From Patescibacteria group bacterium (GTDB taxonomy: Bacteria; Patescibacteriota; Microgenomatia; UBA1406; GWC2-37-13), in the NCBI GenBank assembly GCA_026004415.1, contig BPJC01000002.1, forward strand, positions 62,001 through 126,000: a stretch of DNA of 64,000 nucleotides. Reading direction: 5' to 3'. Each line of letters begins with the position of its first letter. The first letter of the stretch is position 1. The position numbers were made by a program, and so were the translations under genes. Under the pieces are notes generated by a model, which was not told the DNA's origin, searched no databases, and saw only the letters and a list, made by a program, of their open reading frames with translations. Shown here piece after piece: positions 1,759 to 36,017 of this stretch.

Positions 1759-2790
1759 TTAATTTGGTTTAGTTGAATTATAAAACTCTATTATAGCTAA
1801 TTCAAGTGGTATCAAATCATTGGGTGTATATCTAAGTTCTTGATAGGCTCTTTGGAACAATTTCAAAATTAATGCTAATTTGTTCACTAATGTTTTTTTG
1901 TTTTGTTTGATGTTTGCAATCATCTGTTCTTTAGCGTTTTTTAAGGTAAAACTGATTAGATTTTTTATGTCTCCTCCTTGTTTGTAAAACTCTTCTGCCC
2001 AGTCAATCGCTGTTTGCAGATCTTTGTCTAGTAAAATCTCAAGCAGTTGTTTGTTGTCTCTGGTATACAGGTGAGCCAGCGCTTGATCATACTCTAGTTT
2101 GTCTAAAGAAACAAGTTCCTCTAATATCTTTGCCGCGTCTCTGAATGAGTTGTTAGCTGTTTCGGCAATAAGTTCCAGTGTCTTTTCATCAATTTTAAGT
2201 TGCTCGCCTGATATGATTCTTTTTAACATAGATACAATATCTTTGTTTGTAACTGCTCCAAAATTAACAATTACACATCTTGATTTTATTGTTTCAGGCA
2301 GTTTTTCAGGATTAGTTGTTGCCAAAATAAATATAGTTTTATCTGGAGGTTCTTCTAGTGTTTTAAGCAATGCATTGAAGGCATCATAAGTTATCATATG
2401 AGCTTCGTCTATTATAAAGACTTTGTGTCTGGCAGACATAGGAGCAAAATGAGCTTCTCTAATTAGATTTTTAATGTCGTCAATTCCTCTGTGTGAAGCC
2501 GCATCTAACTCAACTACATCTGATATTGCCTCGTTGGTTATTTGTTGACACATACTGCATTTGCCGCAAGGGTCAACTTTGTCGTTTATGTTTGCGAATT
2601 TGTTGTTTAGGCAATTTATTGCTTTTGCCAATATTCTGGCTGAAGAGGTTTTACCGGTTCCTCTTTGACCTGTAAATATAAAGGCATGGGGTAGATCTTT
2701 GTTTTGTTTAAGTATTGAGTACAAAAGTTCTCTGGCTTTAGGGTTGTCAAGTTCTGAAATAGATTGTGGTCGATATTTAAGATAATACAT
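1759..2790 (-). CDS. dnaX: DNA polymerase III subunit gamma (clamp-loader ATPase)
   Basis: The 343-residue protein has the Walker A GQRGTGKTSSAR near residue 41, a four-cysteine zinc module (CLNN...CGKCSMC) near 60-82, the Walker B IIDEAHM near 125, and the sensor stretch FILATTNPEKLP followed by SRC. The C-terminal part fits the collar domain. It is short compared with E. coli tau and lacks a long tau extension, so only a gamma-like form is encoded. The start is the ATG at 2788-2790, which has a TATAAT hexamer 9 bases upstream (2800-2805) in the short gap after ybeY, suggesting an internal promoter. Confidence 0.95.
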   Translation of the reverse strand: MYYLKYRPQSISELDNPKARELLYSILKQNKDLPHAFIFTGQRGTGKTSSARILAKAINCLNNKFANINDKVDPCGKCSMCQQITNEAISDVVELDAASHRGIDDIKNLIREAHFAPMSARHKVFIIDEAHMITYDAFNALLKTLEEPPDKTIFILATTNPEKLPETIKSRCVIVNFGAVTNKDIVSMLKRIISGEQLKIDEKTLELIAETANNSFRDAAKILEELVSLDKLEYDQALAHLYTRDNKQLLEILLDKDLQTAIDWAEEFYKQGGDIKNLISFTLKNAKEQMIANIKQNKKTLVNKLALILKLFQRAYQELRYTPNDLIPLELAIIEFYNSTKPN

Positions 2791-2799
2791 ACTGTTTAC

Positions 2800-2805
2800 A
2801 TTATA
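2800..2805 (-). promoter_or_regulatory. Candidate -10 box just upstream of dnaX
   Basis: On the minus strand the hexamer reads TATAAT and ends 9 bases before the dnaX ATG. It lies in the 19-base gap between ybeY and dnaX. If used, the transcript would have a leader of about 1-3 bases. Confidence 0.45.
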
Positions 2806-2809
2806 CAGT

Positions 2810-3178
2810 TTAATTAGACAGTTGTTGGTTTAGAGTTTGTACACTATGTTCAATTAAGGATTTAAACAAGTTATCGACTGTTTTATTTCTTTCTGCGGCC
2901 AATAAAATTGCTTGAGGATAACAGATTACAATCTCTGCTATTAGGTACTCTTGGTCTTGTTGTTGAAAGTATGGAAAGGTTAAGATCGGCAATGCTACAT
3001 TTTCATTTTTGTAAGCCTGACTCAGTTGTTTCATCTTGGTTTTGCCTACAATAGTTAGATTAACTACTCCAGTGTTAATTCCGATTTTAGACAAACTCTC
3101 TGATAATGTTTCTTTTAAAAACTTTCTGTTAATTTTATATCTTGATGAACAAATGATATTAACTTTAATATTAGTCAT
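2810..3178 (-). CDS. ybeY: YbeY-like endoribonuclease with a degenerate metal site
   Basis: The 122-residue protein keeps the YbeY core: VNLTIVGKTKMKQLSQAYK near residue 40, the ILTFPY strand near 66, and AEIVICYPQA near 82. The family signature near the C terminus has three zinc-binding histidines (H-x3-H-x5-H, usually HGxLHLxGxDH). Here the corresponding stretch is LIEHSVQTLNQQLSN: the first His remains, the second is replaced by Gln, and the third is absent. YbeY normally matures the 16S rRNA 3' end. The enzyme is probably inactive or altered here. It overlaps the rpsU end by 8 bases. Confidence 0.78.
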   Translation of the reverse strand: MTNIKVNIICSSRYKINRKFLKETLSESLSKIGINTGVVNLTIVGKTKMKQLSQAYKNENVALPILTFPYFQQQDQEYLIAEIVICYPQAILLAAERNKTVDNLFKSLIEHSVQTLNQQLSN

Positions 3179-3368
3179 CTTTTTTTTGTCTTCTAATTTT
3201 TTTTAGATAATTCCATCTTTTTTTGGTTTCTTTTTTTAAGGTTGATGGTTTTATATAGTATAGCCTTTTTTTATACTCATCTATAATATTTTCTTCCAAA
3301 AATGTTTTTACAAACTTTCTCAACATTGAGTCTTTGTTTTCATCTTTGTCTTTTTTAACAAAAACCAT
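3171..3368 (-). CDS. rpsU: Small ribosomal subunit protein bS21
   Basis: This 65-residue basic protein has the bS21 pattern: an initial strand MVFVKKDKDENKDSMLRKF, a helix, and the conserved YKKRLYYIKPSTLKK motif. bS21 sits near the anti-Shine-Dalgarno end of 16S rRNA in the 30S subunit. Its start has a strong AAAGGAGGTG Shine-Dalgarno (3379-3388), unlike almost all other genes in this window. It overlaps ybeY by 8 bases. Confidence 0.85.
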   Translation of the reverse strand: MVFVKKDKDENKDSMLRKFVKTFLEENIIDEYKKRLYYIKPSTLKKETKKRWNYLKKIRRQKKDD

Positions 3369-3378
3369 AAAAAATACT

Positions 3379-3388
3379 ACACCTCCTT
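3379..3388 (-). promoter_or_regulatory. Strong Shine-Dalgarno of rpsU
   Basis: On the minus strand the sequence reads AAAGGAGGTG, nearly full complementarity to the 16S 3' end, about 10 bases before the rpsU ATG. Neighbouring genes show little or no Shine-Dalgarno. In Bacteroidota a strong Shine-Dalgarno on rpsU is known to serve autoregulation by bS21; the same role here is an inference. Confidence 0.75.
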
Positions 3389-3389
3389 T

Positions 3390-3406
3390 TGCTTAAGTTT
3401 AACTTA
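3390..3406. repeat. Short palindrome upstream of rpsU
   Basis: A near-perfect palindrome, TTAAGTT-T-AACTTAA, lies in the 64-base gap between the DHH-like gene and rpsU. It could be an operator or the stem of a weak hairpin; no T-run typical of a terminator follows on the minus strand. Confidence 0.3.
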
Positions 3407-3432
3407 AAAACTTTTGTAGTCTTTCTATTTTA

Positions 3433-4302
3433 TTATATTTGTTTTAAAACTTCAATTAGTTCTGGTAATTTTAGTTTGGTTGGCGTATAGTTTGGTGATT
3501 TTAAGGTTCCGTTAAGCAGTATTTTTTTTGACTGGTGTAGAAACCAGCGTGTTTTAGGTTCAAGGTTTTTAAGTTTGTTGTAAGTCTCGGTAAGGTCAAT
3601 CTCTGATTCAGGATGAGCTTTAATTTTGACTATTTTTCTATTTTTATCAAACCTTAAAACTAATTTATAACCTGATTTTAAGGCAATCTGAGAAACTACT
3701 TCATTAGATGAGATTACAGCTAATCCTTTACCTTTTGAGGTTTTGAATATGTAGGCATTTTTCAGTTCCTTTTCAGCTCTTAACTTGTTTTTTAATATGT
3801 TTAAAACTCCTTCTAAAGCCAAAAAACCAAATTCTACTGTTTGAAGGTCATTTGTGAGTTTAATCTTTACTCCTTCGATGATCTGATGAAGGAGAAAGTC
3901 ATAAATATCTGAAGTAGGATCTTTTAGGTTTACCTCTTGAAAATTGTCAAAAAATGTAACAACTTTGGTTAGTCTTATGAGGGCTTGTTTTTCCAATCCT
4001 GATATATATTTGTGCTTGATTAGATGTTTTAATACTCTTTCTGTGGCAGAAGTTTTTTGTTTTAATTGATGGTGGTCAAACTGGCCTAATCCTGTGTCTG
4101 TATGAATTATGTTGGGATTGCTGTCTACTTTCTGCTGGTTTAAGGTTTCTCCTGCAGGTACAAACTGCATCTCTGCTAATTTCCAGCCGGGCAGATGGCG
4201 TTTGATTAACCAAGCAGAGGCTATAGCATCCAAATCTGGCCAGGTGTGTGTAACAATTATTTTTTTTGATCTTGCCATCTTTTGTTTAATATGATCTTGC
4301 AA
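3433..4302 (-). CDS. DHH/MYG1-like phosphoesterase family protein
   Basis: The 289-residue protein opens with IIVTHTWPDLDAIASAWLI, an H-x(3)-D-x-D metal-binding motif of the DHH superfamily, and has HTDTGLGQFDHHQ near residue 70, which resembles the DHHQ motif of MYG1 proteins. These folds hydrolyse phosphodiesters of nucleotides or short nucleic acids with manganese. The C-terminal half (SSNEVVSQIALKSGYKLVL and later) is not a recognised DHHA1 domain. It overlaps the proS 3' end by 17 bases. The substrate cannot be read from sequence. Confidence 0.65.
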   Translation of the reverse strand: MQDHIKQKMARSKKIIVTHTWPDLDAIASAWLIKRHLPGWKLAEMQFVPAGETLNQQKVDSNPNIIHTDTGLGQFDHHQLKQKTSATERVLKHLIKHKYISGLEKQALIRLTKVVTFFDNFQEVNLKDPTSDIYDFLLHQIIEGVKIKLTNDLQTVEFGFLALEGVLNILKNKLRAEKELKNAYIFKTSKGKGLAVISSNEVVSQIALKSGYKLVLRFDKNRKIVKIKAHPESEIDLTETYNKLKNLEPKTRWFLHQSKKILLNGTLKSPNYTPTKLKLPELIEVLKQI

Positions 4303-5710
4303 TTATCCATTCTCTTTTGGCTGGTTTGCCGCAATAAAAACATTTTTTGTTTTGGTTTTGATTTAGATTCTCAAGCTCAACTACTCTGCTGACTGCTTTG
4401 GTCTCATCTTTTATTTTTGCTTCGCATTCTTCTGATTCACACCAGAAAGTTTTAACAAATTTTTTATTGTTTATTGCTTTAATAAACTCATCTTTGTTAT
4501 TTACAGTTTGCAGGATCTTATTTTTTTTGTTTCTAAATTGCTTTAAAAGATCATTTTGCATGGTGTCTAACAACTGTCCTATTTCTTTTTCATAGTTGTT
4601 TTGTTTGATTTTTATTTTGTCTTGTCTTGTGCGAAGTTTTATTGTCAGTTCTTGATTCTCAACTTCTTTTTCTCCCACTTCAATAATTACTGGAATGCCT
4701 TTTAGTTCCCAGTTTGTAAGTCTCCATCCTAAACTCTTTTTAAGGTTGTTGTCTGTTTTGACTCTAAAATTCTCAGCTAGTTTTTTTTCTAATTGTTTGG
4801 TTTTTGTCTTAATTTTTTGGGATTTTGACAACGGTAAAATCACAATTTGATAAGGAGCTATCTTTGGAGGTAGAACAAGTCCTCTGTCATCTCCATGAGA
4901 TAAAAATAAAGCTCCTAATGTTCTTGTTGATAAGCCCCAAGATGTTTGCCAAACATAAACAAGTTTGTTGTCTTTGTTCAAAACCTGAATTTTAAAAGCC
5001 TTTGAGAAGTTTTGTCCTAGATTGTGAGAAGTGGCAGATTGAATAGATTTTCCGTTTTCAACAGGTGTTTCTATGGCAAAGGTTTTATCTGCTCCCGCAA
5101 ATTTTTCAGCTGTGCTTTTTTGGCCAATAAATGGATCTATGGCTAGATAATCTGTGTATAGTTTGTAGTACCAGTTTAGGGCTTTCAGAACCATTTTTTC
5201 AGCCGCTTCATTGCTTATATGCGCAGTGTGTCCTTCTTGCCATAAAAATTCTGAAGTTCTTAAAAAAGGATAGGTTCTCTTCTCCCATCTGACAACATTA
5301 CACCATTGATTTATTTTAAGAGGCAGATCTTGATATGATTTTAACCATTTCGAAAATGTCGCATACATTATTGTTTCAGATGTTGGTCTTACGACTAAAG
5401 GTTCTGTAAGTTTTTCTCCTCCTCCGATAGTAACTATAGCTAGTTCTGGGCTAAAGCCTTTTACATGGGTTTTTTCTTTTTCCAAAAGTGAGTATGGTAT
5501 AAACAAGGGAAAGTAGGCGTTTTCAACACCATCTTGCTTAAACCAGTTGTCTAATATTTTTTGAATTTGTTCCCAGATAGCATAAGCATAAGGCTTGAAA
5601 ATTATGGTGCCTTTGGCATAGGAATAATCAGCTAAATCCGCAAGCTCCATTAAATCAAGATACCACCTAGATATGTTTTTGCTTTTTGGTGTTAATTTCT
5701 CTGGTTTCAT
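4286..5710 (-). CDS. proS: Prolyl-tRNA synthetase, archaeal/eukaryotic type
   Basis: The 474-residue class II synthetase begins SKNISRWYLDLMELADLADYS, typical of the short archaeal/eukaryotic type. Motif 2 is RWEKRTYPFLRTSEFLWQEG; VVRPTSETIMY and LVLPPKIAPYQIVILPL are also diagnostic. The C-terminal zinc-like domain keeps four cysteines (CESEEC...CFYC) and ends in a tyrosine, as in this subgroup. There is no bacterial editing insertion. The start overlaps the previous gene by 4 bases, indicating translational coupling. Confidence 0.95.
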   Translation of the reverse strand: MKPEKLTPKSKNISRWYLDLMELADLADYSYAKGTIIFKPYAYAIWEQIQKILDNWFKQDGVENAYFPLFIPYSLLEKEKTHVKGFSPELAIVTIGGGEKLTEPLVVRPTSETIMYATFSKWLKSYQDLPLKINQWCNVVRWEKRTYPFLRTSEFLWQEGHTAHISNEAAEKMVLKALNWYYKLYTDYLAIDPFIGQKSTAEKFAGADKTFAIETPVENGKSIQSATSHNLGQNFSKAFKIQVLNKDNKLVYVWQTSWGLSTRTLGALFLSHGDDRGLVLPPKIAPYQIVILPLSKSQKIKTKTKQLEKKLAENFRVKTDNNLKKSLGWRLTNWELKGIPVIIEVGEKEVENQELTIKLRTRQDKIKIKQNNYEKEIGQLLDTMQNDLLKQFRNKKNKILQTVNNKDEFIKAINNKKFVKTFWCESEECEAKIKDETKAVSRVVELENLNQNQNKKCFYCGKPAKREWIIARSY

Positions 5711-19030: not shown

Positions 19031-19744
19031 TCATTTGTTTAGAACCCACTCCACCACCATCCTTTTCAACCTAAAATACTCCTCTTTCTCAAACTGCATA
19101 TTGGCGATGCAGTATTTTTTGGATTTAAGGTGGGAGCAGAAGAGGCATTCGTAAAGATCGTAGGAGTCATGGATGAAAAGACTGTTTGACACTTTGTTGC
19201 TCCAGCTGACCTCAAAGCAGTTTGAGCAGTTGATGCTTTCGCTTATTCTTACTCCAAAACTGCAGCTTGAATTATCTCTGCTTGCCAACATAAAAGCGCT
19301 GTTGAAGATTTTGTAACAAAAGATTATATCCCTGCTGTCAAAGATTGAGATACTTTTGTAGATATTTCTTGAGTTGTAAATGCCGTCGGATTTGGCAATA
19401 TTTAAACTGTTTATCTGCTTTTCTGCTGTATATATCTTTATCTCCTCCCAAGCTTTAAGGATATCATCCATTGAGTTAAGCGATCTTTTCTTTCTTATCC
19501 AGCCGGTTTTTTGAAACTCTTCAGCTATGGCTTTTAAAGAAGCTACCTTTTCATCTGCGAAAAAAGCATAGGTTTTTTTGCCTGAAAGAGCGCAGATTCT
19601 CTCCTCTGGTTTTGGAATATCAAAGCTGAACTTTTCCTCTATTCTTTCAAGTTTAAGTTCTTCGATTCTTTTATGATATTCTGGAAACTGAAAAACTTGT
19701 TTTAAGATCTTCTGAGCTGTTTGTAAAGCTGTTTTTTCATCCAT
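19031..19744 (-). CDS. Repeat-containing protein of unknown function, probable beta-helix
   Basis: The 237-residue protein has a helical N-terminal third. From about residue 110 it has short, regular Ser/Asn/Asp/Ile-rich turns (LNIAKSDGIYNSRNIYKSIS, IFDSRDIIFCYKIFNSAFML, NCSNCFEVSWSNKVSNSLFI) suggesting a right-handed beta-helix. It ends with a C-x2-C module and KKYCIANMQFEKEEY, a motif I associate with uncharacterised CPR proteins. It follows the HerA-like ATPase gene by 15 bases, so the two are likely co-transcribed. Confidence 0.55.
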   Translation of the reverse strand: MDEKTALQTAQKILKQVFQFPEYHKRIEELKLERIEEKFSFDIPKPEERICALSGKKTYAFFADEKVASLKAIAEEFQKTGWIRKKRSLNSMDDILKAWEEIKIYTAEKQINSLNIAKSDGIYNSRNIYKSISIFDSRDIIFCYKIFNSAFMLASRDNSSCSFGVRISESINCSNCFEVSWSNKVSNSLFIHDSYDLYECLFCSHLKSKKYCIANMQFEKEEYFRLKRMVVEWVLNK

Positions 19745-19759
19745 AAGCTTTAAAAAAAT

Positions 19760-21466
19760 TTAACTTATAAAAAGAGTTTCTCCTTTTATTGCTGGATAAA
19801 ACTTTCCATTGGCAAAGACGCGGGCAATGACTTCTCTTGGATTGAGATTGACAAAAAGCTGTTTTTTAAGGTTTTTTTGTTCTTCTTTGCTTTCAGAGAG
19901 GATTTTTGATAGCTCGATTTCAAGATTTGAGCTGATAATCTTTGCTTCTTCATCCGAGACCTTGAAAACAAAAAAGTTGTAAACATTTGAAAGTATTGCT
20001 CGCAAAAGATTTTGAGAAACCTGGGTTAAGTATTGCTGAGCAAGATAAAGGCCTAAGTTAAATTTTCGTGCTTCAGAAAGGATTGAGATCAAAGCTTCAT
20101 TTTCCACAGTTGAGACTTCATCAATTATCAGAATTATTTTTTTGTTTATTTTTCTCTTTTGGCTGATTAGAAAGACTTGTTGGATAATTAGTCCTGCGAT
20201 AAGCTGCGTGGCTTTTTCACCCAGATAAATTCGCTCCAAAGGAAAGCTTACTAAAAAATTATTTTCAATTGCTTCTTCAAGATTTGCTTCTTGTAATTGC
20301 TTTTTTGAAAAGGCAGGAATAAAGCTCATTTCATCAATAAGGCTTAAGATAGGTACAACTGCTGTGTCATAATAGTTTGTGATAATTTCTATAAACTCTG
20401 TCTGAAAAAAATGCTTTAAAAAATCTTCTTCAGTTTTCTCTAGCACTTTGTTTTTAAACTCTACATCAGTCAAGAACTTTTTTAAAGTCTCAAGATCCAT
20501 TTGTTTCTGTTTGAATAGAAGATATAAGCTGTATTTTAAGATGCGCTCCAGCTTGTTGTTAAAGCTTTGGGATAAAAGGGTTTTAAAAAGCAAAAGAGTC
20601 AGCTCAGTTGAGATTTTAGGTTCGTTTTCTTCTGGGAAAAGCTGGCAGTAGTGATTTATAAAATCAAAGCTTATTTTTTTGGCATTGAGGCTGTTTAGAT
20701 TTTTTTCTATGCTTGCATGCGGATCAATTAGAACTACGCTATATTCTTCAGAGAAATGGCTCAATCTGTCTATAAGAAGCTGGATAAACTTGGACTTTCC
20801 TACTCCGGTCTGTCCGATAATTAAGCTGTGTTTTAGAAAATCAAATGAGTTTAGATTAAGATAAAAATCTTTGTTTGAAAAAGGAAAGGCATTGATTTTT
20901 AGCAGGGATAAGTTGGTTTTTTGTCCTAATATCTCATAGTTTTTTGCAATATCAAGGCAGATCGGCAAAGGCTCTTTTTGCAAAAGATATTTATTTCCAA
21001 AATCAAGCTCTAAGAAGTTTTCCAAGCCTGAAAAAATGAGTTTTGTAAATTTATAGTCTATTTCATTTTCCTGAAAGATTAGTGAGAGTTTGTAGAAGGG
21101 AAAAAGTTTTAAAATATGTTGTTTTGTTATTGATAAAAGTTTGATTTCTCCTTTTTGTTTGGTTTTGATTAAAAATTCAGTTAGGTTTTTGTATTTTTTT
21201 AGATTTAAAGCTTTGCGCGTTTGAGTTGAGTCAGAAAAGGTCGGATCCGGAAGGTTTTTTTCTTTTTTAAAGAGTATGAAATCGATCTTTTCCAAAACAG
21301 GCGGCAGATCTTTTTCAAGCAAGAGATAACAGATAAGGTTGTTTTCCTTAAGTTCAAAGATCAATGAAAACTCTGCTGAAGCTTTTTTAAATTCATTAAA
21401 AATCTTTTGCCAGTCTTCTGATGTGATTTTATTTTTTAAAAAGTACAGTTTATATGCATTTCTCAT
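19760..21466 (-). CDS. HerA/VirB4-like P-loop ATPase (DUF87-type)
   Basis: From the ATG at 21464-21466 the protein has about 568 residues. Walker A is IIGQTGVGKSKFIQLLIDRL near residue 220, followed by VVLIDPHASIEKNL; Walker B is KIILIIDEVSTVENEALIS near 445, then ARKFNLGLYLAQQYLTQVS. The layout matches hexameric translocases that pump DNA or protein, as in conjugation and pilus systems. An upstream TTG at 21484 is possible, but the ATG is favoured because a TATACT box ends 8 bases before it. Confidence 0.8.
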   Translation of the reverse strand: MRNAYKLYFLKNKITSEDWQKIFNEFKKASAEFSLIFELKENNLICYLLLEKDLPPVLEKIDFILFKKEKNLPDPTFSDSTQTRKALNLKKYKNLTEFLIKTKQKGEIKLLSITKQHILKLFPFYKLSLIFQENEIDYKFTKLIFSGLENFLELDFGNKYLLQKEPLPICLDIAKNYEILGQKTNLSLLKINAFPFSNKDFYLNLNSFDFLKHSLIIGQTGVGKSKFIQLLIDRLSHFSEEYSVVLIDPHASIEKNLNSLNAKKISFDFINHYCQLFPEENEPKISTELTLLLFKTLLSQSFNNKLERILKYSLYLLFKQKQMDLETLKKFLTDVEFKNKVLEKTEEDFLKHFFQTEFIEIITNYYDTAVVPILSLIDEMSFIPAFSKKQLQEANLEEAIENNFLVSFPLERIYLGEKATQLIAGLIIQQVFLISQKRKINKKIILIIDEVSTVENEALISILSEARKFNLGLYLAQQYLTQVSQNLLRAILSNVYNFFVFKVSDEEAKIISSNLEIELSKILSESKEEQKNLKKQLFVNLNPREVIARVFANGKFYPAIKGETLFIS

Positions 21467-21474
21467 ATGCGTAA

Positions 21475-21480
21475 AGTATA
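21475..21480 (-). promoter_or_regulatory. Candidate -10 box of the HerA-like gene
   Basis: TATACT on the minus strand ends 8 bases before the ATG at 21464-21466, favouring that start and predicting a leaderless mRNA. Confidence 0.4.
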
Positions 21481-21669
21481 GCAAATATAATATTTTTGTT
21501 TTTAATTTTTATTTTTATAAAGCCCCAAAATATTTTTTTTGTAAGTTTGAATAGTGAAGTTTTATCTGATGAGTTTTTTTAGATAAAATTATCGAAATAA
21601 TTGAGAGTGTTGTTTATCTTTGATGGATACACTCGTTTTAAATAAATATTTTTCAAGATTAGTAGAACT

Positions 21670-23787: not shown

Positions 23788-24335
23788 ATGAATACAGTTT
23801 TTACCATCCACGGCGCGTATGGATATCCGAAGGAAAATTGACTGCCGTGGTTAAAAGACAAGCTTGAAAAATTAGGCTGTCGGGTTTTTGTTCTTCACCT
23901 TCCTACTCTAGAAGATCAGAGCTTTGAAAATTGGTTAAAGGTTTTTAAGCCTTACGAAAAATATATTGATGAAAACACTATATTTGTTTGTCACAGCTTG
24001 GGACCAGCCTTTATTTTAAGAGTTTTAGAAAGACTAAACTGAGCAGTAGAAGCTTGACTTTTTGTTGCGGGTTTTACTGGGTTTTGGGAAATTCAAAGCT
24101 TGATGAGATTAATAAATCGTTTATTGATAAACCTTTTGATTGGGAAAAGATAAGGAAAAATTGCAAAAACTTTTATGTTTTTCACTCGGACAACGATCCT
24201 TATGTTCCTTTGAAAGAAGGAAAAAAGTTGGGAGTAGATCTTATTATAATTCTTAATGCAGGCCATTTTAACGCAAAAGCCGGATATACGAAGTTTGAGA
24301 TGTTGTTGGAAAAAGTAAGAACGGTTATTATTTAA
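23788..24335 (+). pseudogene. RBBP9/YdeN-like alpha/beta hydrolase, broken by three TGA codons and one frameshift
   Basis: The N terminus TVFTIHGAYGYPKEN and the nucleophile elbow FVCHSLGPAFIL are those of small serine hydrolases, and AGHFNAKAGYTKF near the end holds the catalytic His. TGA codons fall after PKEN, after RLN and after VEA; the first sits where relatives have Trp (NWxPWL). A one-base shift near 24,080 separates the last third. Other genes in the window end with TGA, so recoding is unlikely. Confidence 0.75.
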
Positions 24336-24549
24336 TTTTCTCAAACCTTTTGACTTTTTTCCCATTCACCTCCACCTCTTCCAAAAACATCTTTAAAGGC
24401 CTAACCCATAGAGCATTTTTTCCGAACTCTTTTGAATCATAAAGCGCACGATAGACAACTAAGGGTTCTAAAGTTTCACTATGTCGAGCTATTCCGATTA
24501 CTTCATAAAATTTTCCTTTGTAATGCCTGTAGATTCCTGGTTTTAGCAT
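24328..24549 (-). CDS. DUF1653 family protein
   Basis: From the ATG at 24547-24549 the gene encodes about 73 residues: MLKPGIYRHYKGKFYEVIGI, then ARHSETLEPLVVYRALY and LWVRPLKMFLEEVEV, the full DUF1653 pattern. These short beta-rich proteins have no established function. An upstream extension (MWSPKSSIKF) is open but unlike the family. Confidence 0.85.
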   Translation of the reverse strand: MLKPGIYRHYKGKFYEVIGIARHSETLEPLVVYRALYDSKEFGKNALWVRPLKMFLEEVEVNGKKVKRFEKIK

Positions 24550-24706
24550 AAGTTCAGTAAATTTTATAGATGACTTTGGACTCCACAACTTAATTTATTC
24601 TAATATTATAGAATACTCTTAAAATGTGCTTAGTTAATTAAAAAAGGTCTTGCCCAGTTAACTAATAATTTCTCAATAATCTTTTGAGTTCTGAAACTAA
24701 ATCATT

Positions 24707-25440
24707 TTAGTGATTAAATCGCCACTCAGATTCTAATAAGTACTTCTTTAATTGATTTCTCCTCATACCATTAAATTTAGCTAGTCTTCTTTTTATCCAT
24801 GACCAGTAAGATTCTACTTCATTTATATGATTTTCTCTATCTCTTTTGTTCACAAGCTCATTATTCTCATGCTTAATTTTCTTATGATTATACCCTAATA
24901 CCGCTAATGCGTCATATGATCTCCACCCGTCTGTATATATATCCGACCCTGATTTAACCACCTCTCTTATTATAGGTATAACCTCCTCCTTTTGTGCATT
25001 CTTAATAACTTGTGTATATATCATGCCTCCTCTCTTCAATAATCCTAAAACTATTACCTTTCTCCTCGCCCCTCTCCCTCTCTTTCCCTTTGCCCTCTGC
25101 GGATCAAAGTGCGCTTCATCTATTTCTATACCATTCTTTAACCTTACCTTCTCTCTCCTTTATCGCTTTCTTTATTATTACTTCCCTAAAAAGATTATAA
25201 TAGCTGTCTGCTGTCTTCCTATTAACTCCTGTTGCTGAAACTTCCTTACAAGTGGTATATCTCCTGGAAGACTAAAAGGGTCTATTATGACTTTGAAATT
25301 CGGTGACGTGTATGAGTTTCCATTTCAGCTTTTTATAAAACCCTAAATCCCATTTTTCAGCACTGTTAAATGGGCAGAAACTCTAAAAATATATAAGTGC
25401 TGCGGCTAAAAAGGTTGTTAAACAAACTTAATTTTGTTTC
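24707..25440 (-). mobile_element. IS1595-family (ISXO2-like) transposase remnant
   Basis: The C-terminal 110 residues are open (24707-25039): KSGSDIYTDGWRSYDALAVL, then NHINEVESYWSWIKRRLAKF, the DDE-domain block with its Asp and Asn/Glu of IS1595 transposases. The upstream part continues in other frames with NGIEIDEAHFDPQRAKGKRG, TGVNRKTADSYYNLFREVI and a zinc-ribbon-like WDLGFYKKLKWK. Several frame breaks make it inactive. No terminal repeats could be identified by eye. Confidence 0.75.
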
Positions 25441-25455
25441 TGACAGTTAGGATTA

Positions 25456-25464
25456 TGATATAAT
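25456..25464 (+). promoter_or_regulatory. Candidate extended -10 box
   Basis: TGATATAAT at 25456-25464 is an extended -10 element, 18 bases before the ATG at 25483. Confidence 0.4.
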
Positions 25465-25482
25465 TTAAAATTAAAGCCTATA

Positions 25483-26160
25483 ATGAGAAAACTTATAAAT
25501 TTAAGAAAAGTTTTTCTTTTTCTCTCAACATTTTTTTTGATTTATCTTTTTATTTCCATTACAAACTACACATGGATTAATTACAATACTTATCGAGGAT
25601 ATAGTTCTTTGATAGAAAATTATCTTTTAAGATATAAAGAAGAGCTAAAGAATAATCTATATGAGAAAACTTTTTCATCAGTCCAAGAGTGTTTATTACC
25701 TGATAATTCCTATGATGAAAAGTGTTTGGATAAGGTGAGAAAAGCGTTGGAACAGGTAATATGTGAGGAAGAATTAGGTTTTCAGACCCCTTCTCTATTT
25801 TTTGCTTTGAAATAGCAAGATCAAGTTTTTAGATTAGGTTGGGATGGAAAGATAACTGATATTAAAAATAACCCTAAAAAACAGATAAGTAGTTTTGATT
25901 TCATCTTCAAGTTTTTTTGAAAAAGAATATGTTTTATCTGTGAAATTTATAAATCATTTGAGATTGCAAAAAACAAAACAGCTTATTTTGGCTTTAGAAT
26001 TTTATCTATAGATATTCCTTTTTTTGAAATATTTATTTTGCCTTTTGTTTCGTTTCTAGGGTTAATTTTATACTCTTTTATAGAGTTTACTCTAGAATTT
26101 TTTAAAAACGGATTTAATTACTCGTTTGAATTCTTTTATGCAAAAATGCTTTTTTTTTGA
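25483..26160 (+). pseudogene. Membrane sensor-like protein with in-frame stops
   Basis: The frame is open for 110 codons, then continues past a TAG (25813-25815) and a TGA to 26160. An N-terminal helix (VFLFLSTFFLIYLFISI), an extracytoplasmic segment with four cysteines, and a second helix (PFVSFLGLILYSFI) make a two-helix sensor topology. The segment VFRLGWDGKITDIKNN lies in between. No kinase or effector domain follows. The family was not recognised. Confidence 0.45.
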
Positions 26161-26429
26161 GAGCTTGCCTTTGATAATTGGTATGTTGTTGTCGTATCTT
26201 ATTCTTAAAGTTCGGCATATTATTATGAAACCTTTTTTAAAGGTTGCTAAAACTTATTTGCAGTTTCGGAAATATTGCTTTTTGGTATTTTAATCTTTTA
26301 ATTTTGGCAATTCTTCATTTGTTATAAACTGATCAGTATTTGTTCAAGTTTAGCTATTTAGGTTAAGTTAGATTTTGCAAAATGCTACCTTAATCTACAA
26401 TTACTGTTTTTATTTAATTATAGATTGTA

Positions 26430-26622
26430 AGATTTCAGAGAATTAAGAACTACAGTGTTGAAGAAATTACATAAAAGAATAATTAATCTGCCAAGTAGAT
26501 TGTTTAATCTTGCAGTTTTGGTTAATATTAGTGTAAAGATACAAGCAGATAAGATGAAAAAGTTAGTTAGAACTTGGTTGAAAGATGAATATGTAACTGA
26601 AGATTCAATATTAAAATCTTAA
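26430..26622 (+). pseudogene. Transposase C-terminal remnant
   Basis: About 60 open codons with no start: LRTTVLKKLHKRIINLPSRL, then FNLAVLVNISVKIQADKMKK and a final VRTWLKDEY. The LRTTVL...RI pattern is like the C terminus of DDE transposases of IS1380/IS4 type. The 26,160-26,430 stretch before it has no recognised feature. Confidence 0.35.
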
Positions 26623-26660
26623 TTTGAAAATTTTTAGTCTATGATAGAATTTTAATAAAA

Positions 26661-27794
26661 ATGAAAAAAATAATAATAACTTTGTTTTTTTTCTCATTTA
26701 CTCTTGTCATTTTTCTTTCTCTTCTTTTATATAACAAAAGCCAATTATTTAAGTCAAAAGATGAAAAGACAACTCAAGAGTTATCAAAGGAAAAAGTTAA
26801 TGATAATATTAGCTCAATTTTAACTCCGGCTTTAGCAAATCCCAATGACAGAGAAAAATTTAAGATTTATATAAATAAACAATCTAACTTAAGTTTTCAA
26901 TATCCTGAAAAATTTACCGTATTTTCAGATCCAATTTGTAGTGAGATTTTTCTTAATAAAGAATCCAAATGTTTTACTTCATTGAGAATTTTACCGAATA
27001 CTGCTTATTCAGTTTACCTTCCTCCAGCTAAGCTTTGGTTAGTAAAAAATTTAACTTTGGATATGCTTCTTATACCAGGAGAAGATATACTGCAAAATAA
27101 GAATTTAGTTAGTGAAATAGAGAGCCTCAACAAAAATAATGACAAATATAATTTATCTACATATGCATATACTATCACAAATAAACCAATTATTAAGATC
27201 GAAATGAATAAAGATCTTTTAATTGACTTTGATTATTATATAGTTCCAGATTACGAGAGGAATTTGTATGTTGTTTTGCGTTTTCCTAGAGCTTTTCAGA
27301 TTAAATGTGGCTCTTATAATAAAGATTCTCTTAAATCTGGATGTGAAGAATTTATAAATTATGTTGCTCAAAAATATGAAGACCAGTATGAAGAAAACCC
27401 CAAATCGATAATCCCAATATGTGACAATATTGACGATAAAGAAGCAAGAGCGGATTGCGAAACCTTTGCAGACTCGCTAGAGTCAGTTGTTGTTACATGT
27501 GATATTTATGAGGATAAAGTAGAAAAGACTGAATGTGAAAAAATGCTTAACCTTATTGAAGAAAAAAATAGAGAAAAAGGAATAGATGGTACTAAGTATT
27601 ATAATCCTTGTGATGCTTTTAAAACTGAGATAGAAAAAGCTAAATGTTTAGAGTTTTACGATAAATTCTTTAAAAAATATAAAGAAAGGACCGAGAATCC
27701 ACAGTCTATCTATTCGGAGGGAGAGATTCTTGAACAGTATGTTAAAGAGGTTTACTCTGGATTAGAAGATATTATAAAAACAGTTAGATTTTGA
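26661..27794 (+). CDS. Membrane-anchored extracytoplasmic protein with C-x11-C repeats
   Basis: The 377-residue protein starts with a hydrophobic anchor (residues 4-25), then a linker and a domain around LSFQYPEKFTVFSDP and AKLWLVKNLT. Near residue 250 three repeats of Cys-x11-Cys follow one another (CDNIDDKEARADC, CDIYEDKVEKTEC, CDAFKTEIEKAKC), which look like disulfide-closed helical hairpins. It is paralogous to the next gene, which has one such repeat. TGA is the stop. An extracellular location and unknown binding role are inferred. Confidence 0.65.
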   Translation: MKKIIITLFFFSFTLVIFLSLLLYNKSQLFKSKDEKTTQELSKEKVNDNISSILTPALANPNDREKFKIYINKQSNLSFQYPEKFTVFSDPICSEIFLNKESKCFTSLRILPNTAYSVYLPPAKLWLVKNLTLDMLLIPGEDILQNKNLVSEIESLNKNNDKYNLSTYAYTITNKPIIKIEMNKDLLIDFDYYIVPDYERNLYVVLRFPRAFQIKCGSYNKDSLKSGCEEFINYVAQKYEDQYEENPKSIIPICDNIDDKEARADCETFADSLESVVVTCDIYEDKVEKTECEKMLNLIEEKNREKGIDGTKYYNPCDAFKTEIEKAKCLEFYDKFFKKYKERTENPQSIYSEGEILEQYVKEVYSGLEDIIKTVRF

Positions 27795-27851
27795 GAATTT
27801 GCAAAATATAAATTATCTAATTAAAATTTTAATGCGAGATTAGGTTTAAAG

Positions 27852-27857
27852 TATAAT
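27852..27857 (+). promoter_or_regulatory. Candidate -10 box of the second anchored protein
   Basis: TATAAT lies 15 bases before the ATG at 27873, in the short gap between the two paralogues. Confidence 0.35.
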
Positions 27858-27872
27858 TTCATTTTAAAAAGA

Positions 27873-28727
27873 ATGAAAAAAATAATAATAGCTTTATCTT
27901 TTATCTTTTTTATCTTGATTCTTGTTATTATTTTTCTTTGGTATACGAGGGAGAAAAGTTTTGATTTTGGTTTATTAGAAAGCACTCAAGATGTCTCAGA
28001 AAAATTATATGAAAAAGAAACTGATGCAGGTTTAACACCTACTAAAGATAACAATTTTAACCCTAAAATTGTAAGACCAGATTTAGAGTCTAAGTTTAAG
28101 TCTTATACAGACAGTCGATATAACTTAAGTTTTCAATATCCTAATAACTTTATTATTGTTCCAGAAGAAAGATGCGGAGAAGTTTTATCTGATCAGCAAA
28201 AAGAATATAATTGTCTTACTGCCTTAAAGGTTTTTCCAGAAGGGGTGAACTTAAATTATATTCCTCCTGCAAGATTCTGGCTTATAAAGGGGGTAGATTC
28301 TGTTGGTATTGGCGATCAAATAAGCCAAATAGTTTATGACAGAGATCTTAATAGTTGGATAGATTATGTTGGAGACAGAAATGAGAGATTGTCGATTTAT
28401 ACTTATACCACTGATGGAAAATCGATTATCAAAGCTGAAAACGGTGGCAGTCATTCATCTTCAGTTTATTATATAATCTCGGATTATGATAAGGATTTGG
28501 TTGCTATTTTTTCTTTCCCTCAAGCCTTTAGAGTCAGGTGTGATGTTGTTGAAAATCCGAAAGAAAGAGCTGATTGCGAGGCATATCTGAACTCTATAAT
28601 TGAAACTTACGGAAAAGACGATGAAGATATGCAAGTCTGTTTACCAAGAGGGCTGGATTCCGGTGAGGAGTATCTTCAGAAACTTTACTCTGAGGCAGAA
28701 AATATTGTAAAAACTCTTGTATTTTGA
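27873..28727 (+). CDS. Paralogous membrane-anchored extracytoplasmic protein
   Basis: The 284 residues begin MKKIIIALSFIFFILILVII, an N-terminal anchor like that of the upstream paralogue. The shared core includes YNLSFQYPNNFIIVPEERCG, PARFWLIKG, LSIYTYTTDGKSIIKAE and the FSFPQAFRVRC strand. It has a single C-x11-C unit (CDVVENPKERADC) instead of three, and ends NIVKTLVF, close to the paralogue's IIKTVRF. The pair arose by tandem duplication with gain or loss of the cysteine repeats. Confidence 0.65.
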   Translation: MKKIIIALSFIFFILILVIIFLWYTREKSFDFGLLESTQDVSEKLYEKETDAGLTPTKDNNFNPKIVRPDLESKFKSYTDSRYNLSFQYPNNFIIVPEERCGEVLSDQQKEYNCLTALKVFPEGVNLNYIPPARFWLIKGVDSVGIGDQISQIVYDRDLNSWIDYVGDRNERLSIYTYTTDGKSIIKAENGGSHSSSVYYIISDYDKDLVAIFSFPQAFRVRCDVVENPKERADCEAYLNSIIETYGKDDEDMQVCLPRGLDSGEEYLQKLYSEAENIVKTLVF

Positions 28728-32890: not shown

Positions 32891-33007
32891 AAGTTAAAAA
32901 AGGAAAAATTAAACTGATTGTCTTCAAAAATGAAAAAATTTAATTTTGATATCTAAGCTCCTATTTATTTCTTCAAACAAATTTTATAACCTTATAGTTA
33001 GTTCGTA

Positions 33008-33016
33008 TGATACAAT
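33008..33016 (+). promoter_or_regulatory. Candidate extended -10 box of the large gene
   Basis: TG-A-TACAAT ends 7 bases before the ATG at 33024. This supports 33024 as the start rather than an upstream ATG at 32946. Confidence 0.45.
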
Positions 33017-33023
33017 ATCATAT

Positions 33024-36017
33024 ATGACTGAAGATTTAAAAGATTTCCAATCCGATTTAGAAGAGCAAACAGGTATTACCCCCGAAGAAGAAGCTCAAGC
33101 AGAAAAGGCACAAAAAGCTACAGAAAAAACTATAATAAGTGCTGCACAATTTGCAGCTGACCGACTTACTCCACACCCCTCGAAGCCTACGCCTGAAATA
33201 AGACGAGAAAGCCAAACTAAATTTTTAATTCCCCCGTATAGTACGGAAGAGCTTTCTGCGATAGAATCACAACTCCAAGAAGCAAACATACAGATCAGAA
33301 GCTCTTTTGAAAACTATAAACCTCACCTTCTGGCATCACTGATATTTGCTTCCAGAATTGGAATTAACATCTCAGAACTGCTAGAGAATTTACAAAATTA
33401 TATTGAACAAAAAATGAAAACTTCATATCATTATCACAGTGGAATAAATCATCAAGAAGCAACCTATTTTATACAAGAACAAGTAGTTAAAAAATTGGCA
33501 GAAGAAAAAACTTTAGAAATACCTCCAGATTTAAAACCAAATGAGGATAGAAAAATATTTATGACTACTTTGGCAAATAATCTTTCTCCAGAAAAATGCC
33601 TAGAATTAGCTAGATACATTGCGAGCACTTCCACTGAATTTAGGAGTTCGCCATTTTATTTTTCAGGAGTAAACATATTCGAGTTGACCCATAGCGGACC
33701 ACTAAGAAGACAGAATATAGCAATAGCAATCGCTCAGCAGCCATTTGATGTCGACAGCCTTAAAGATTTTCTCTTACAGAATGGAATTAGAAAAGACAAA
33801 TTCTTATTAGCCATGGCAAATCCTCTTCTAAGAGCACTTTTTCCCTTGGCTACCCTATTAGCAAAAACTTATCCTATCACTCTTCAATATTCTCCTCAAA
33901 ATAAAAAAGAACTCCCAATAAAGGATGCGTTAGAAGAAGTTTTAGAAAGATGTTATAAGGAAACTCCATTAGGAGAAGAACCTAAAGGACCATTTCCTTT
34001 AGAAGAGATATCTGCCCAAATTATAATTGAAGGGTTAGAACAATTACCTCAAGAGGATTTAGAAACTAGATTTAGACAGATTTTATCTTCAATCTTAGAA
34101 TCAGAACAACCTTTTGAAGAACTTGAGAAAGTCTTTCCTGATATTAATTTGTTTTTAGAAGATAGGGATAGAAACTCTTTAGTCAACGCTTTAAATGCTC
34201 TAAAACCAGCTATAAACAACCCTAATCAGATACCACCTGCAGATTTTTGGAGGAATATTTCTAGAAAACCAAATATAATCGATAGCTCTTTTTTCCCTAC
34301 ATATTTATATAAACTATTAATCCAAACTTTCTACAGAGCTGGAGGACAAGAACATTTATCAAGATGGAGAGATTTAATTCAAAGCTTTGTCGTTTCAGAA
34401 GGACAAAAAAGAAATGGAGAAGCATTGAAAATTGTTATTATTAACTCAAACACAATTGCCATATTCGATGGTAATAACCCATTATTTTCACTAGTAAAAG
34501 AAGAAGATGGATGGTATCCTACACCGTACTACGGTAAAACCACAAGACAACCAGTTTTTGCAATTGCAGGCGAATCTTATGAAGAATTACAGAGGCGTAT
34601 TGCTGAAGCAAAATTTACTTATGAAGTTAGCAGTGAATTTTTAAAAGAAATTTTACGAGAACGCCTAAGCGAATTCGAAAAAAGTATATACACACATATT
34701 ACACAGCAAATAAATCTACAAGCCTTAAACGCAGCAGGTATTCACCCAAGCCATTCCTCTTTTGCTTATAGAGAATCCATTGCCCCCTCTTTTTTACAAG
34801 ATGTTAAGTATCTTATTGGAAGCCTTTCTCCTTACGGAATAGGTATATATGACAGCATTTTTAGAGCACTTATACAACATTTATTTATAAAAAGAAAACT
34901 TAATCCTGTTGAACTACCAATAAAAGCACCATTAACTGAAGAGACTGTAACTATTAAACATCCCATCCTGGAGCTCAATACAATTACTTGGGGGGAGATT
35001 CAAAGAAAGCTAAAAGAAACAGGAGAAGATGTAAGAATCCCTGAGGTAACAATAAGAAACCAAAGAGGATTTGAAATACGTACAAGAGCAGGGGTTTACG
35101 AAACACTCTTACAATTAAAAGAAGTGGGATTTGATGCTGTTTTAGGAAAAACTATGGCAGAAGAATTTAATCGACAGTCTGCAAGAATTTACGTGGAAAA
35201 AGCACTTGTGGGTTTAGGCTTTTTACCTGAAAACTATCAAAGAGATCATCCACTCACAAGTTTAAAAGAAAAACAACAAAGACTCTACAGTAAAGCTCTA
35301 GAATTAGGATTTACTACTCAACTTGAAAAAGATTATTACCTAGCAAGAACTCTCTCCTTACCACTAACTTGGAAAAGGGAAAAGGAGCTTATGGATTTTC
35401 TAGAAAACCAGTTAGGAAAGGATGAGTTCAACCAATTCTTAAATGAAATAGGCATAGATAAAAACTATTTTGAAACAAGAGAAATTATTGAAGATTTTCT
35501 AAATTTTGCATCAGGATGGGGATGGAGTCAGTTTGATAGAAGTAATGAATTTCCTACTTATTATTATCAACAACCAACTTATAATCTTGATTTAAAACTC
35601 TCTATACGTTCAGGATACAGAAATGCTGGTGAATTTGCCATCTCAACTCAAGCCCAAAAAATATTTAAAGCTGCTAAAAAAACTTGGGAAAACTTTTTAA
35701 CAGAAGTAAAAGGAAAAATAGCCGAACAATCAGAAAACGAACCATTAACTAAAATTTTGAATTTAGGAAAAGCTTTGGCTTCAGAAATAGATCGCATGTC
35801 TCAAGCAGAAGTTACAGAATGGGCCGAAAAGATTATTAAAGGAGAAATTGCAGCAGTAGGAAAAGATATCACCGAGCCAATAGAAGTAAATACATGGAGA
35901 GATTTTTATGAAGCAATAAGACAACTCATGAATACTGCTAAATTAGTTTTAATCTACCGATCCGAAAAAGAAAGATTCGGATGGGAAGTATCAACAGATA
36001 AAGACGAATTATCTTAA
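33024..36017 (+). CDS. Large uncharacterised soluble protein
   Basis: From the favoured ATG at 33024 the protein has about 997 residues. The N terminus is acidic with a predicted coiled coil (TPEEEAQAEKAQKATEKTII). The middle (residues 230-460) is helical, and later segments include KIVIINSNTIAIFDGNNPLF and a region around FGWEVSTDKDELS at the end. No membrane helix, P-loop or known catalytic motif was seen. The gene is intact although it lies between decayed glycosyltransferase fragments and is flanked by a 150-base direct repeat. Function unknown. Confidence 0.6.
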   Translation: MTEDLKDFQSDLEEQTGITPEEEAQAEKAQKATEKTIISAAQFAADRLTPHPSKPTPEIRRESQTKFLIPPYSTEELSAIESQLQEANIQIRSSFENYKPHLLASLIFASRIGINISELLENLQNYIEQKMKTSYHYHSGINHQEATYFIQEQVVKKLAEEKTLEIPPDLKPNEDRKIFMTTLANNLSPEKCLELARYIASTSTEFRSSPFYFSGVNIFELTHSGPLRRQNIAIAIAQQPFDVDSLKDFLLQNGIRKDKFLLAMANPLLRALFPLATLLAKTYPITLQYSPQNKKELPIKDALEEVLERCYKETPLGEEPKGPFPLEEISAQIIIEGLEQLPQEDLETRFRQILSSILESEQPFEELEKVFPDINLFLEDRDRNSLVNALNALKPAINNPNQIPPADFWRNISRKPNIIDSSFFPTYLYKLLIQTFYRAGGQEHLSRWRDLIQSFVVSEGQKRNGEALKIVIINSNTIAIFDGNNPLFSLVKEEDGWYPTPYYGKTTRQPVFAIAGESYEELQRRIAEAKFTYEVSSEFLKEILRERLSEFEKSIYTHITQQINLQALNAAGIHPSHSSFAYRESIAPSFLQDVKYLIGSLSPYGIGIYDSIFRALIQHLFIKRKLNPVELPIKAPLTEETVTIKHPILELNTITWGEIQRKLKETGEDVRIPEVTIRNQRGFEIRTRAGVYETLLQLKEVGFDAVLGKTMAEEFNRQSARIYVEKALVGLGFLPENYQRDHPLTSLKEKQQRLYSKALELGFTTQLEKDYYLARTLSLPLTWKREKELMDFLENQLGKDEFNQFLNEIGIDKNYFETREIIEDFLNFASGWGWSQFDRSNEFPTYYYQQPTYNLDLKLSIRSGYRNAGEFAISTQAQKIFKAAKKTWENFLTEVKGKIAEQSENEPLTKILNLGKALASEIDRMSQAEVTEWAEKIIKGEIAAVGKDITEPIEVNTWRDFYEAIRQLMNTAKLVLIYRSEKERFGWEVSTDKDELS

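Follow-up and report, generated by a model that had tools for sequence, protein, structure and literature searches.

Two neighbouring genes of a Patescibacteria group bacterium, P1 (26661-27794, 377 aa) and P2 (27873-28727, 284 aa), encode membrane-anchored proteins that differ in their number of C-x11-C units, and the question raised by this locus is what the difference means. Coordinates refer to the window, i.e. the whole 64,000-nt stretch of DNA that was analysed, and all features of P1 and P2 are on its forward strand. The original prediction had read the repeat expansion as suggestive of binding or host interaction in an organism of the candidate phyla radiation (CPR) that may live on a host cell. 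The CPR affiliation holds, since G016, which belongs to the same family, is the genome of a Roizmanbacteria MAG. Both ORFs are found exactly where they had been placed. Each begins with one hydrophobic helix that is followed by the domain, which agrees with an anchored, extracytoplasmic protein. Neither P1 nor P2 matches a Pfam or NCBIfam family over its cut-off.

The two proteins are 31% identical over 249 columns (BLASTP, E 2e-35), and their genes are also related at the DNA level at both ends, so that the proposed tandem paralogy with matching cores is confirmed. A block of 101 nt (26633-26733), comprising 28 bp upstream of P1 and the start of the gene, is 71% identical to 27845-27945; in both genes this repeat runs from 28 bp before the start codon through the anchor. 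At the 3′ end the last 64 nt, stop codon included, are 72% identical. Since the upstream/anchor block and the 3′ end are both common to the two genes, the whole gene appears to have been duplicated in tandem with its upstream region. By sequence comparison, then, P1 and P2 are tandem-duplicated paralogues. P1 is built from an N-terminal membrane anchor, a linker, a core of predicted PsbP/Mog1 type, an insertion with three extra C-x11-C units and a C-terminal core helix; P2 has the same architecture minus the insertion. The helix and last residues that close the P1 core (residues 354-377, 27720-27791) are homologous to the end of P2, as the alignment and the 3′ repeat show.

We counted four C-x11-C spacings in P1 and one in P2. 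The difference in number and the single unit of P2 are thus as originally described, but P1 had been credited with three units. The one overlooked is the first, CGSYNKDSLKSGC (C216-C228, 27306-27344), which in the alignment with P2 and the relatives occupies the position of the unit common to all of them and is therefore the positional counterpart of the P2 unit (C223-C235, 28539-28577; identified by alignment, spacing count and model). The extra units are unit 2 (C254-C266, 27420-27458) and unit 3 (C280-C292, 27498-27536), both delimited by spacing count and model, and unit 4 (C317-C329, 27609-27647), delimited in addition by BLASTP. At least four such spacings arose in 12 of 200,000 composition-preserving shuffles of P1 residues 25-377 (mean 0.25), whereas the lone spacing of P2 is unremarkable by chance, with at least one in 14,519 of 200,000 shuffles. 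The core contains a second cysteine pair, absent from the original prediction: C93-x10-C104 in P1 (26937-26972) and, by alignment, C101-x12-C114 in P2 (28173-28214). These pairs account for all ten cysteines of P1 (93, 104, 216, 228, 254, 266, 280, 292, 317 and 329) and for four of the five of P2 (101, 114, 223 and 235), the fifth being C256. Among 44 of the 56 window ORFs of at least 100 aa (12 overlapping or doubtful ORFs were left out), P1 alone has more than two C-x11-C spacings; the ORF at 19031-19744 has two.

The units were compared with one another over 18 residues, i.e. 16 without the cysteines, and the scores were set against shuffles. Unit 3 of P1 is clearly related to the P2 unit (6/16 identical, a score reached in 0 of 20,000 shuffles) and to the unit of the G001 relative (8/16 identical, P 0.00005), and unit 2 is related to the P2 unit as well (P 0.00015). 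Unit 1 resembles the P2 unit weakly (2/16 identical, P 0.014). Units 1 and 4 compared with most other units gave P of about 0.01-0.04 only, and the pairs involving unit 4 ranged from 0.004 to 0.036. Thus unit 1 holds the position of the P2 unit, yet the closest likeness to that unit is found in units 2 and 3. Moreover, the part of P1 that starts with unit 4 and includes the C-terminus (residues 317-377) gives a second alignment, to P2 residues 223-284 (29% identity, BLASTP), as expected if the extra units were inserted after the first helix and ahead of the C-terminal one.

The predicted models of P2 (me13b544727c7; mean pLDDT 69.5, pTM 0.64) and P1 (m2bb8407d179c; mean pLDDT 63.2, pTM 0.51) suggest where the units sit. 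The P2 model has a strand-rich core, then the C-x11-C loop and a helix after the last long strand, then C-terminal helices. Foldseek returned no row at E ≤ 0.001. Its first row was CyanoP (2lnj; E 0.012, probability 0.96, TM 0.27/0.42, rmsd 11.2), values by which the PsbP/Mog1 fold is supported rather than proven. In a second look at P2 with VIA-align, where models that lack a clear match often reach Z of 7-8 and Z under 8 is uninformative, the top chain was 3hlz_B (Z 10.7, 124 residues aligned at 3.3 Å), followed by PsbP chains (about 8-9.6), Tsi3 (8.8-9.5 without exception), Apa (8.4), LpqN (8.0) and Mog1 (7.9). With the same caution for scores under 8, the P1 model gave PsbP (7.5-10.5), 3hlz_B (10.1), Tsi3 (9.3-9.7), Apa (8.5) and human Mog1 (8.2), LpqN being absent. 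The structural matches of both models are therefore dominated by PsbP, Mog1, Tsi3 and Apa, i.e. by the PsbP/Mog1 superfamily, and the core of P1 and P2 is probably, with moderate confidence, a PsbP/Mog1-type β-sandwich. The insertion is modelled less evenly: the block means of pLDDT are 41-43 over residues 241-280 (unit 2), 80 and 78 over 281-300 (unit 3), and 57 and 80 over 311-330 (unit 4).

Profile searches place the family at the edge of known domains. For PsbP_2 (PF18933, cut-off 27 bits) neither P1 nor P2 gave a row at E ≤ 1. The relatives in G016, G374 and G059 score 14.2-16.9 bits, below the cut-off, and among four more distant proteins scanned with this model one (L024) passes with 30.7 bits and another (L022) reaches 26.3. 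P1 and P2 resemble PsbP_2 and PsbP-like proteins (PF18933, PF01789), anchored CPR members included, in the N-terminal anchor, the linker, the predicted sandwich and a domain start of the type Y-x-F-x-F-x-Y-P; they differ from them by the two conserved cysteine pairs, and P1 also by its expansion. No literature was found that joins 'PsbP-like' with 'candidate phyla radiation'. The core also resembles the extracytoplasmic Mog1/PsbP-fold proteins of solved structure Tsi3, Apa, LpqN and DcrB (VIA-align Z about 6-10, those under 8 being uninformative), whose functions differ among themselves and which show no sequence match to the family profile; the paper on Tsi3 likens that protein to MOG1P and PsbP (PMC3792639). 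Searched by sequence, the PDB contains no chain that matches the family profile at E ≤ 10. The Rap1a immunity proteins (PF18602, cut-off 27.7 bits) match weakly over the helix of the P2 unit (residues 225-265, 15.2 bits, E 0.032) and do not match P1.

How far the unit number varies was judged from the relatives. The P1 protein matches four of 57 genomes near and including that of the window, namely the window's own, G001, G016 and G018, the last over residues 4-87 only (E 0.001). The family profile matches 113 of 372 class genomes at E ≤ 0.001; among the matches listed most are partial and cover the first strands, and those over most of the model are in the window genome, G001, G374, G059 and G154, the G154 match being in two pieces that flank a run of N. 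G016 does not appear among the matches listed in this class-wide search. Of 72 family genomes, the window's included, four reach E ≤ 1e-8; the match spans most of the model in the window's own genome, in G001 and in G016, and only its start in G026. Eight of 379 phylum genomes match at this threshold, the window's and seven partially. A scan for pattern stretches in species genomes yielded four relatives among 73 stretches, in G374 (Woesebacteria GWA1_39_21), G016 (Roizmanbacteria CG02), G059 (Patescibacteria Dive96_bin10.432) and G154 (Shapirobacteria CG06); a contig scan with P2 alone found no relative among 21, and the viral contigs contained none among 109 pattern stretches.

Besides P1 and P2, five relatives were thus found (G001, G016, G374, G059 and G154), each with exactly one unit, of spacing x11 in G001, x12 in G016, G374 and G154, and x15 in G059. 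The unit would therefore be an old part of the core, shared by all relatives found, and the number of units is the same, one, in P2 and in the five others. With one unit in all five, P1 is the single gene, in a single genome, for which the expansion is known, and the idea of a family with varying unit number, as in adhesins, is not upheld. Both cysteine pairs are invariant in the five sequences that align across the whole core, and P1 alone among six alignment rows carries the insertion. Trees of six core sequences separate P1, P2 and G001 from the other three with full support (100), the branching order inside this group being unsupported (56 in the second tree).

The search for the unit in the rest of the genome, which had been suggested as a check, revealed no excess. 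The pattern TGY-N33-TGY-GAR occurs 18 times genome-wide, four of them in P1/P2, against 17 for a reversed control pattern, and this argues against a genome-wide family of units; in the window there are five matches, the same four included, against 1.85 expected, and five of 100 shuffles reach five. The P1 unit region alone, searched against 372 class genomes, hit 15 at E ≤ 0.1, the window's included. In this search the true relative in G001 (E 0.003) scored no better than G336 (0.005, with seven stops inside) or G379 (0.007), and the search thus has little power. Two candidate unit carriers were dismissed by eye, L054 as an ATPase-like and L058 as a tryptophanyl-tRNA-synthetase-like protein, and a P2 tblastn match in the 1023-aa ORF at 32946-36017 (E 8.5e-4 with composition correction off) was judged to be due to chance on reading the protein. 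We also scanned stop-to-stop frames of 60 or more in 66 loci and the window (323,802 bases). Apart from P1 copies, the only frames with at least three spacings were one of GC repeats in L047 and one in L026 that encodes a different Cys-rich protein; two spacings were present in five others, L063 included. The L063 frame (370-1782) is open over 471 aa, with 14 cysteines, and matches the P1 unit region weakly (E 0.083). Similar Cys-spaced repeats occur in secreted archaeal proteins. A literature search for 'Cys-X11-Cys' or 'CX11C' gave no relevant title among the matches listed.

Are the cysteines paired? In the models one cysteine of the unit follows the last strand of the core and the other is in the next helix. 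The register is identical in the four P1 units and that of P2: the helix starts at +6 from the first cysteine, and the second cysteine is helix residue 7. The cysteine positions in the predicted structures, also proposed as a check, are thus compatible with pairing. Moreover, the core cysteines are invariant in the five aligned sequences while the loops between them differ (x10 to x12 in the first pair; x11, x12 and x15 in the unit), as expected of disulfide pairs. Intra-unit disulfides in P1 and P2 are therefore plausible on the models and the alignment. A search for disulfide-forming enzymes used the Pfam models PF07884 and PF13462 only. VKOR has no match in the genome by its Pfam model. The genome does encode an anchored, DsbA-like protein that matches DSBA and Thioredoxin_4 and contains a CPFC motif. 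In this 253-aa protein (L067, 1015-1776) the C-terminal part of DSBA (69-140) precedes the start of Thioredoxin_4 (163-250, with CPFC); its gene is one complete ORF with swapped segments, and at its end are two stops and a hairpin that resembles a terminator. The swapped order makes the activity of the protein uncertain. A CPR protein-family survey lists among the enriched families a thiol-disulfide oxidoreductase that resembles membrane-bound MdbA and in some cases lies beside VKOR (PMC6744442).

The surroundings of the two genes encode other Cys-containing proteins. At 19031-21484 lie the genes of a 237-aa Cys-rich protein (eight cysteines, two C-x11-C spacings, an N/S/D-rich repetitive second half) and of a HerA/TrwB-like ATPase; G001 has conserved both of them as a pair (75% and 66-80% identity), with its ATPase in two ORFs. 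The P2 relative of G001 adjoins the orthologues of this pair, which in the window are 5-7 kb from P1/P2. An ORF of 110 aa (25483-25815), with a hydrophobic helix at its N-terminus and a C-x10-C spacing, has no Pfam match and no tblastn match to P1/P2. It lies amid the short ORFs (about 24000-26600) just upstream of P1, among which are an ORF with an IS1595-type transposase domain (24707-25039) and one that matches only the end of a serine hydrolase model.

Three other accounts of the expansion have to be weighed. P1 might be a duplicate under relaxed selection, a dispensable accessory gene in the process of being lost, in which the extra units were inserted neutrally. The sole copy of a same-genus sister species (G001, L003:1432-2232) is a pseudogene with two in-frame TAA codons, and the P1 branch is long. 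In one tree it measures 2.0 changes per column, where P2 has 0.33 and the broken copy 0.56; the corresponding values of the second tree are 1.3, 0.36 and 0.44. A relative over most of the model is present in only three of 72 family genomes, the window's included, and one of the three is broken; an ORF with a transposase domain also lies upstream of P1. Nevertheless P1 has an uninterrupted frame of 377 codons, and the spacing of all eight unit cysteines is exact, whereas under drift it should gradually be lost. We consider neutral decay possible but on the whole unlikely. The broken copy and the long branch do fit an accessory gene under weak constraint, and they limit any claim of an important role.

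A role in redox or metal sensing, where the cysteine pairs of an anchored, signalling domain would open and close or bind metal, draws on one distant locus. In L049 (G059) a P2-like core is found in a 760-aa, probably anchored ORF (2557-4839) directly before an ECF-type sigma factor gene that starts at 4844 and matches Sigma70_r2 and Sigma70_r4_2 over cut-off, the gene pair spanning 2557-5392. This arrangement resembles that of anti-sigma sensors and suggests a capacity of the core to act as a module for sensing or ligand binding. However, it is a single case, the 760-aa protein has no anti-sigma Pfam match at E ≤ 1, and ten ORFs neighbouring P1/P2 that were scanned include no sigma factor or signalling family. 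RseB and MucB appear in the VIA-align list of P1 only weakly (Z 3.8-5.8), in the uninformative range under 8. A sensor is accordingly quite improbable for P1. Still less probable, indeed very unlikely, is a host-attachment adhesin with a variable number of repeats. The CPR affiliation, the extracytoplasmic location and the gain of repeats in P1 speak for it, and a study of Peribacteria, another CPR group, proposes that attachment may be the role of large, very cysteine-rich exported proteins with strain variation (PMC4736985). P1 shares with these proteins that it is an exported, Cys-rich CPR protein; as described there, those proteins are large and differ in kind. A search for relatives with a different number of units across the near, species, class, family and phylum genome sets found none, so there is no series of unit numbers, and nothing found ties P1 to a host or points to a binding partner. 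The gain is known from a single gene of a single genome, the same-genus counterpart being broken, and the host-interaction reading of the expansion is not borne out.

The account that we favour, with about as much doubt as confidence, is that P1 and P2 are tandem anchored PsbP/Mog1-type proteins of which P1 has a copied, disulfide-closed loop-helix arm for putative binding. A disulfide would tie the loop after the last core strand to the second turn of the helix that comes next. In P1 three further copies of this loop-plus-helix would stand between that helix and the C-terminal one, and the core would thereby carry additional short helices, stapled by disulfides, as a stack or arm, a shape suggested by a low-confidence model. 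Protein binding or a place in envelope complexes is known for several proteins of this fold, and the sandwich is most likely a non-enzymatic protein-binding or envelope-scaffold domain of this kind, to which the arm may add a surface for contact with an envelope or extracellular partner. A bolder and more speculative version, which we think improbable, is that the stapled loop-helix of a PsbP-type core has turned into a modular repeat, the helical arm, made of copies of a piece of the protein's own fold, being an evolvable binding surface that a small-genome bacterium has on a common anchored scaffold.

This is an ordinary, widespread group with one unusual member, P1, which has four units where its relatives have one. 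By itself the P1 expansion has no bearing on the attachment of CPR bacteria to hosts. If the favoured account is true, P1 would be a small, clear case of a widespread CPR surface domain that gained surface by repeating its own disulfide-closed element after gene duplication.
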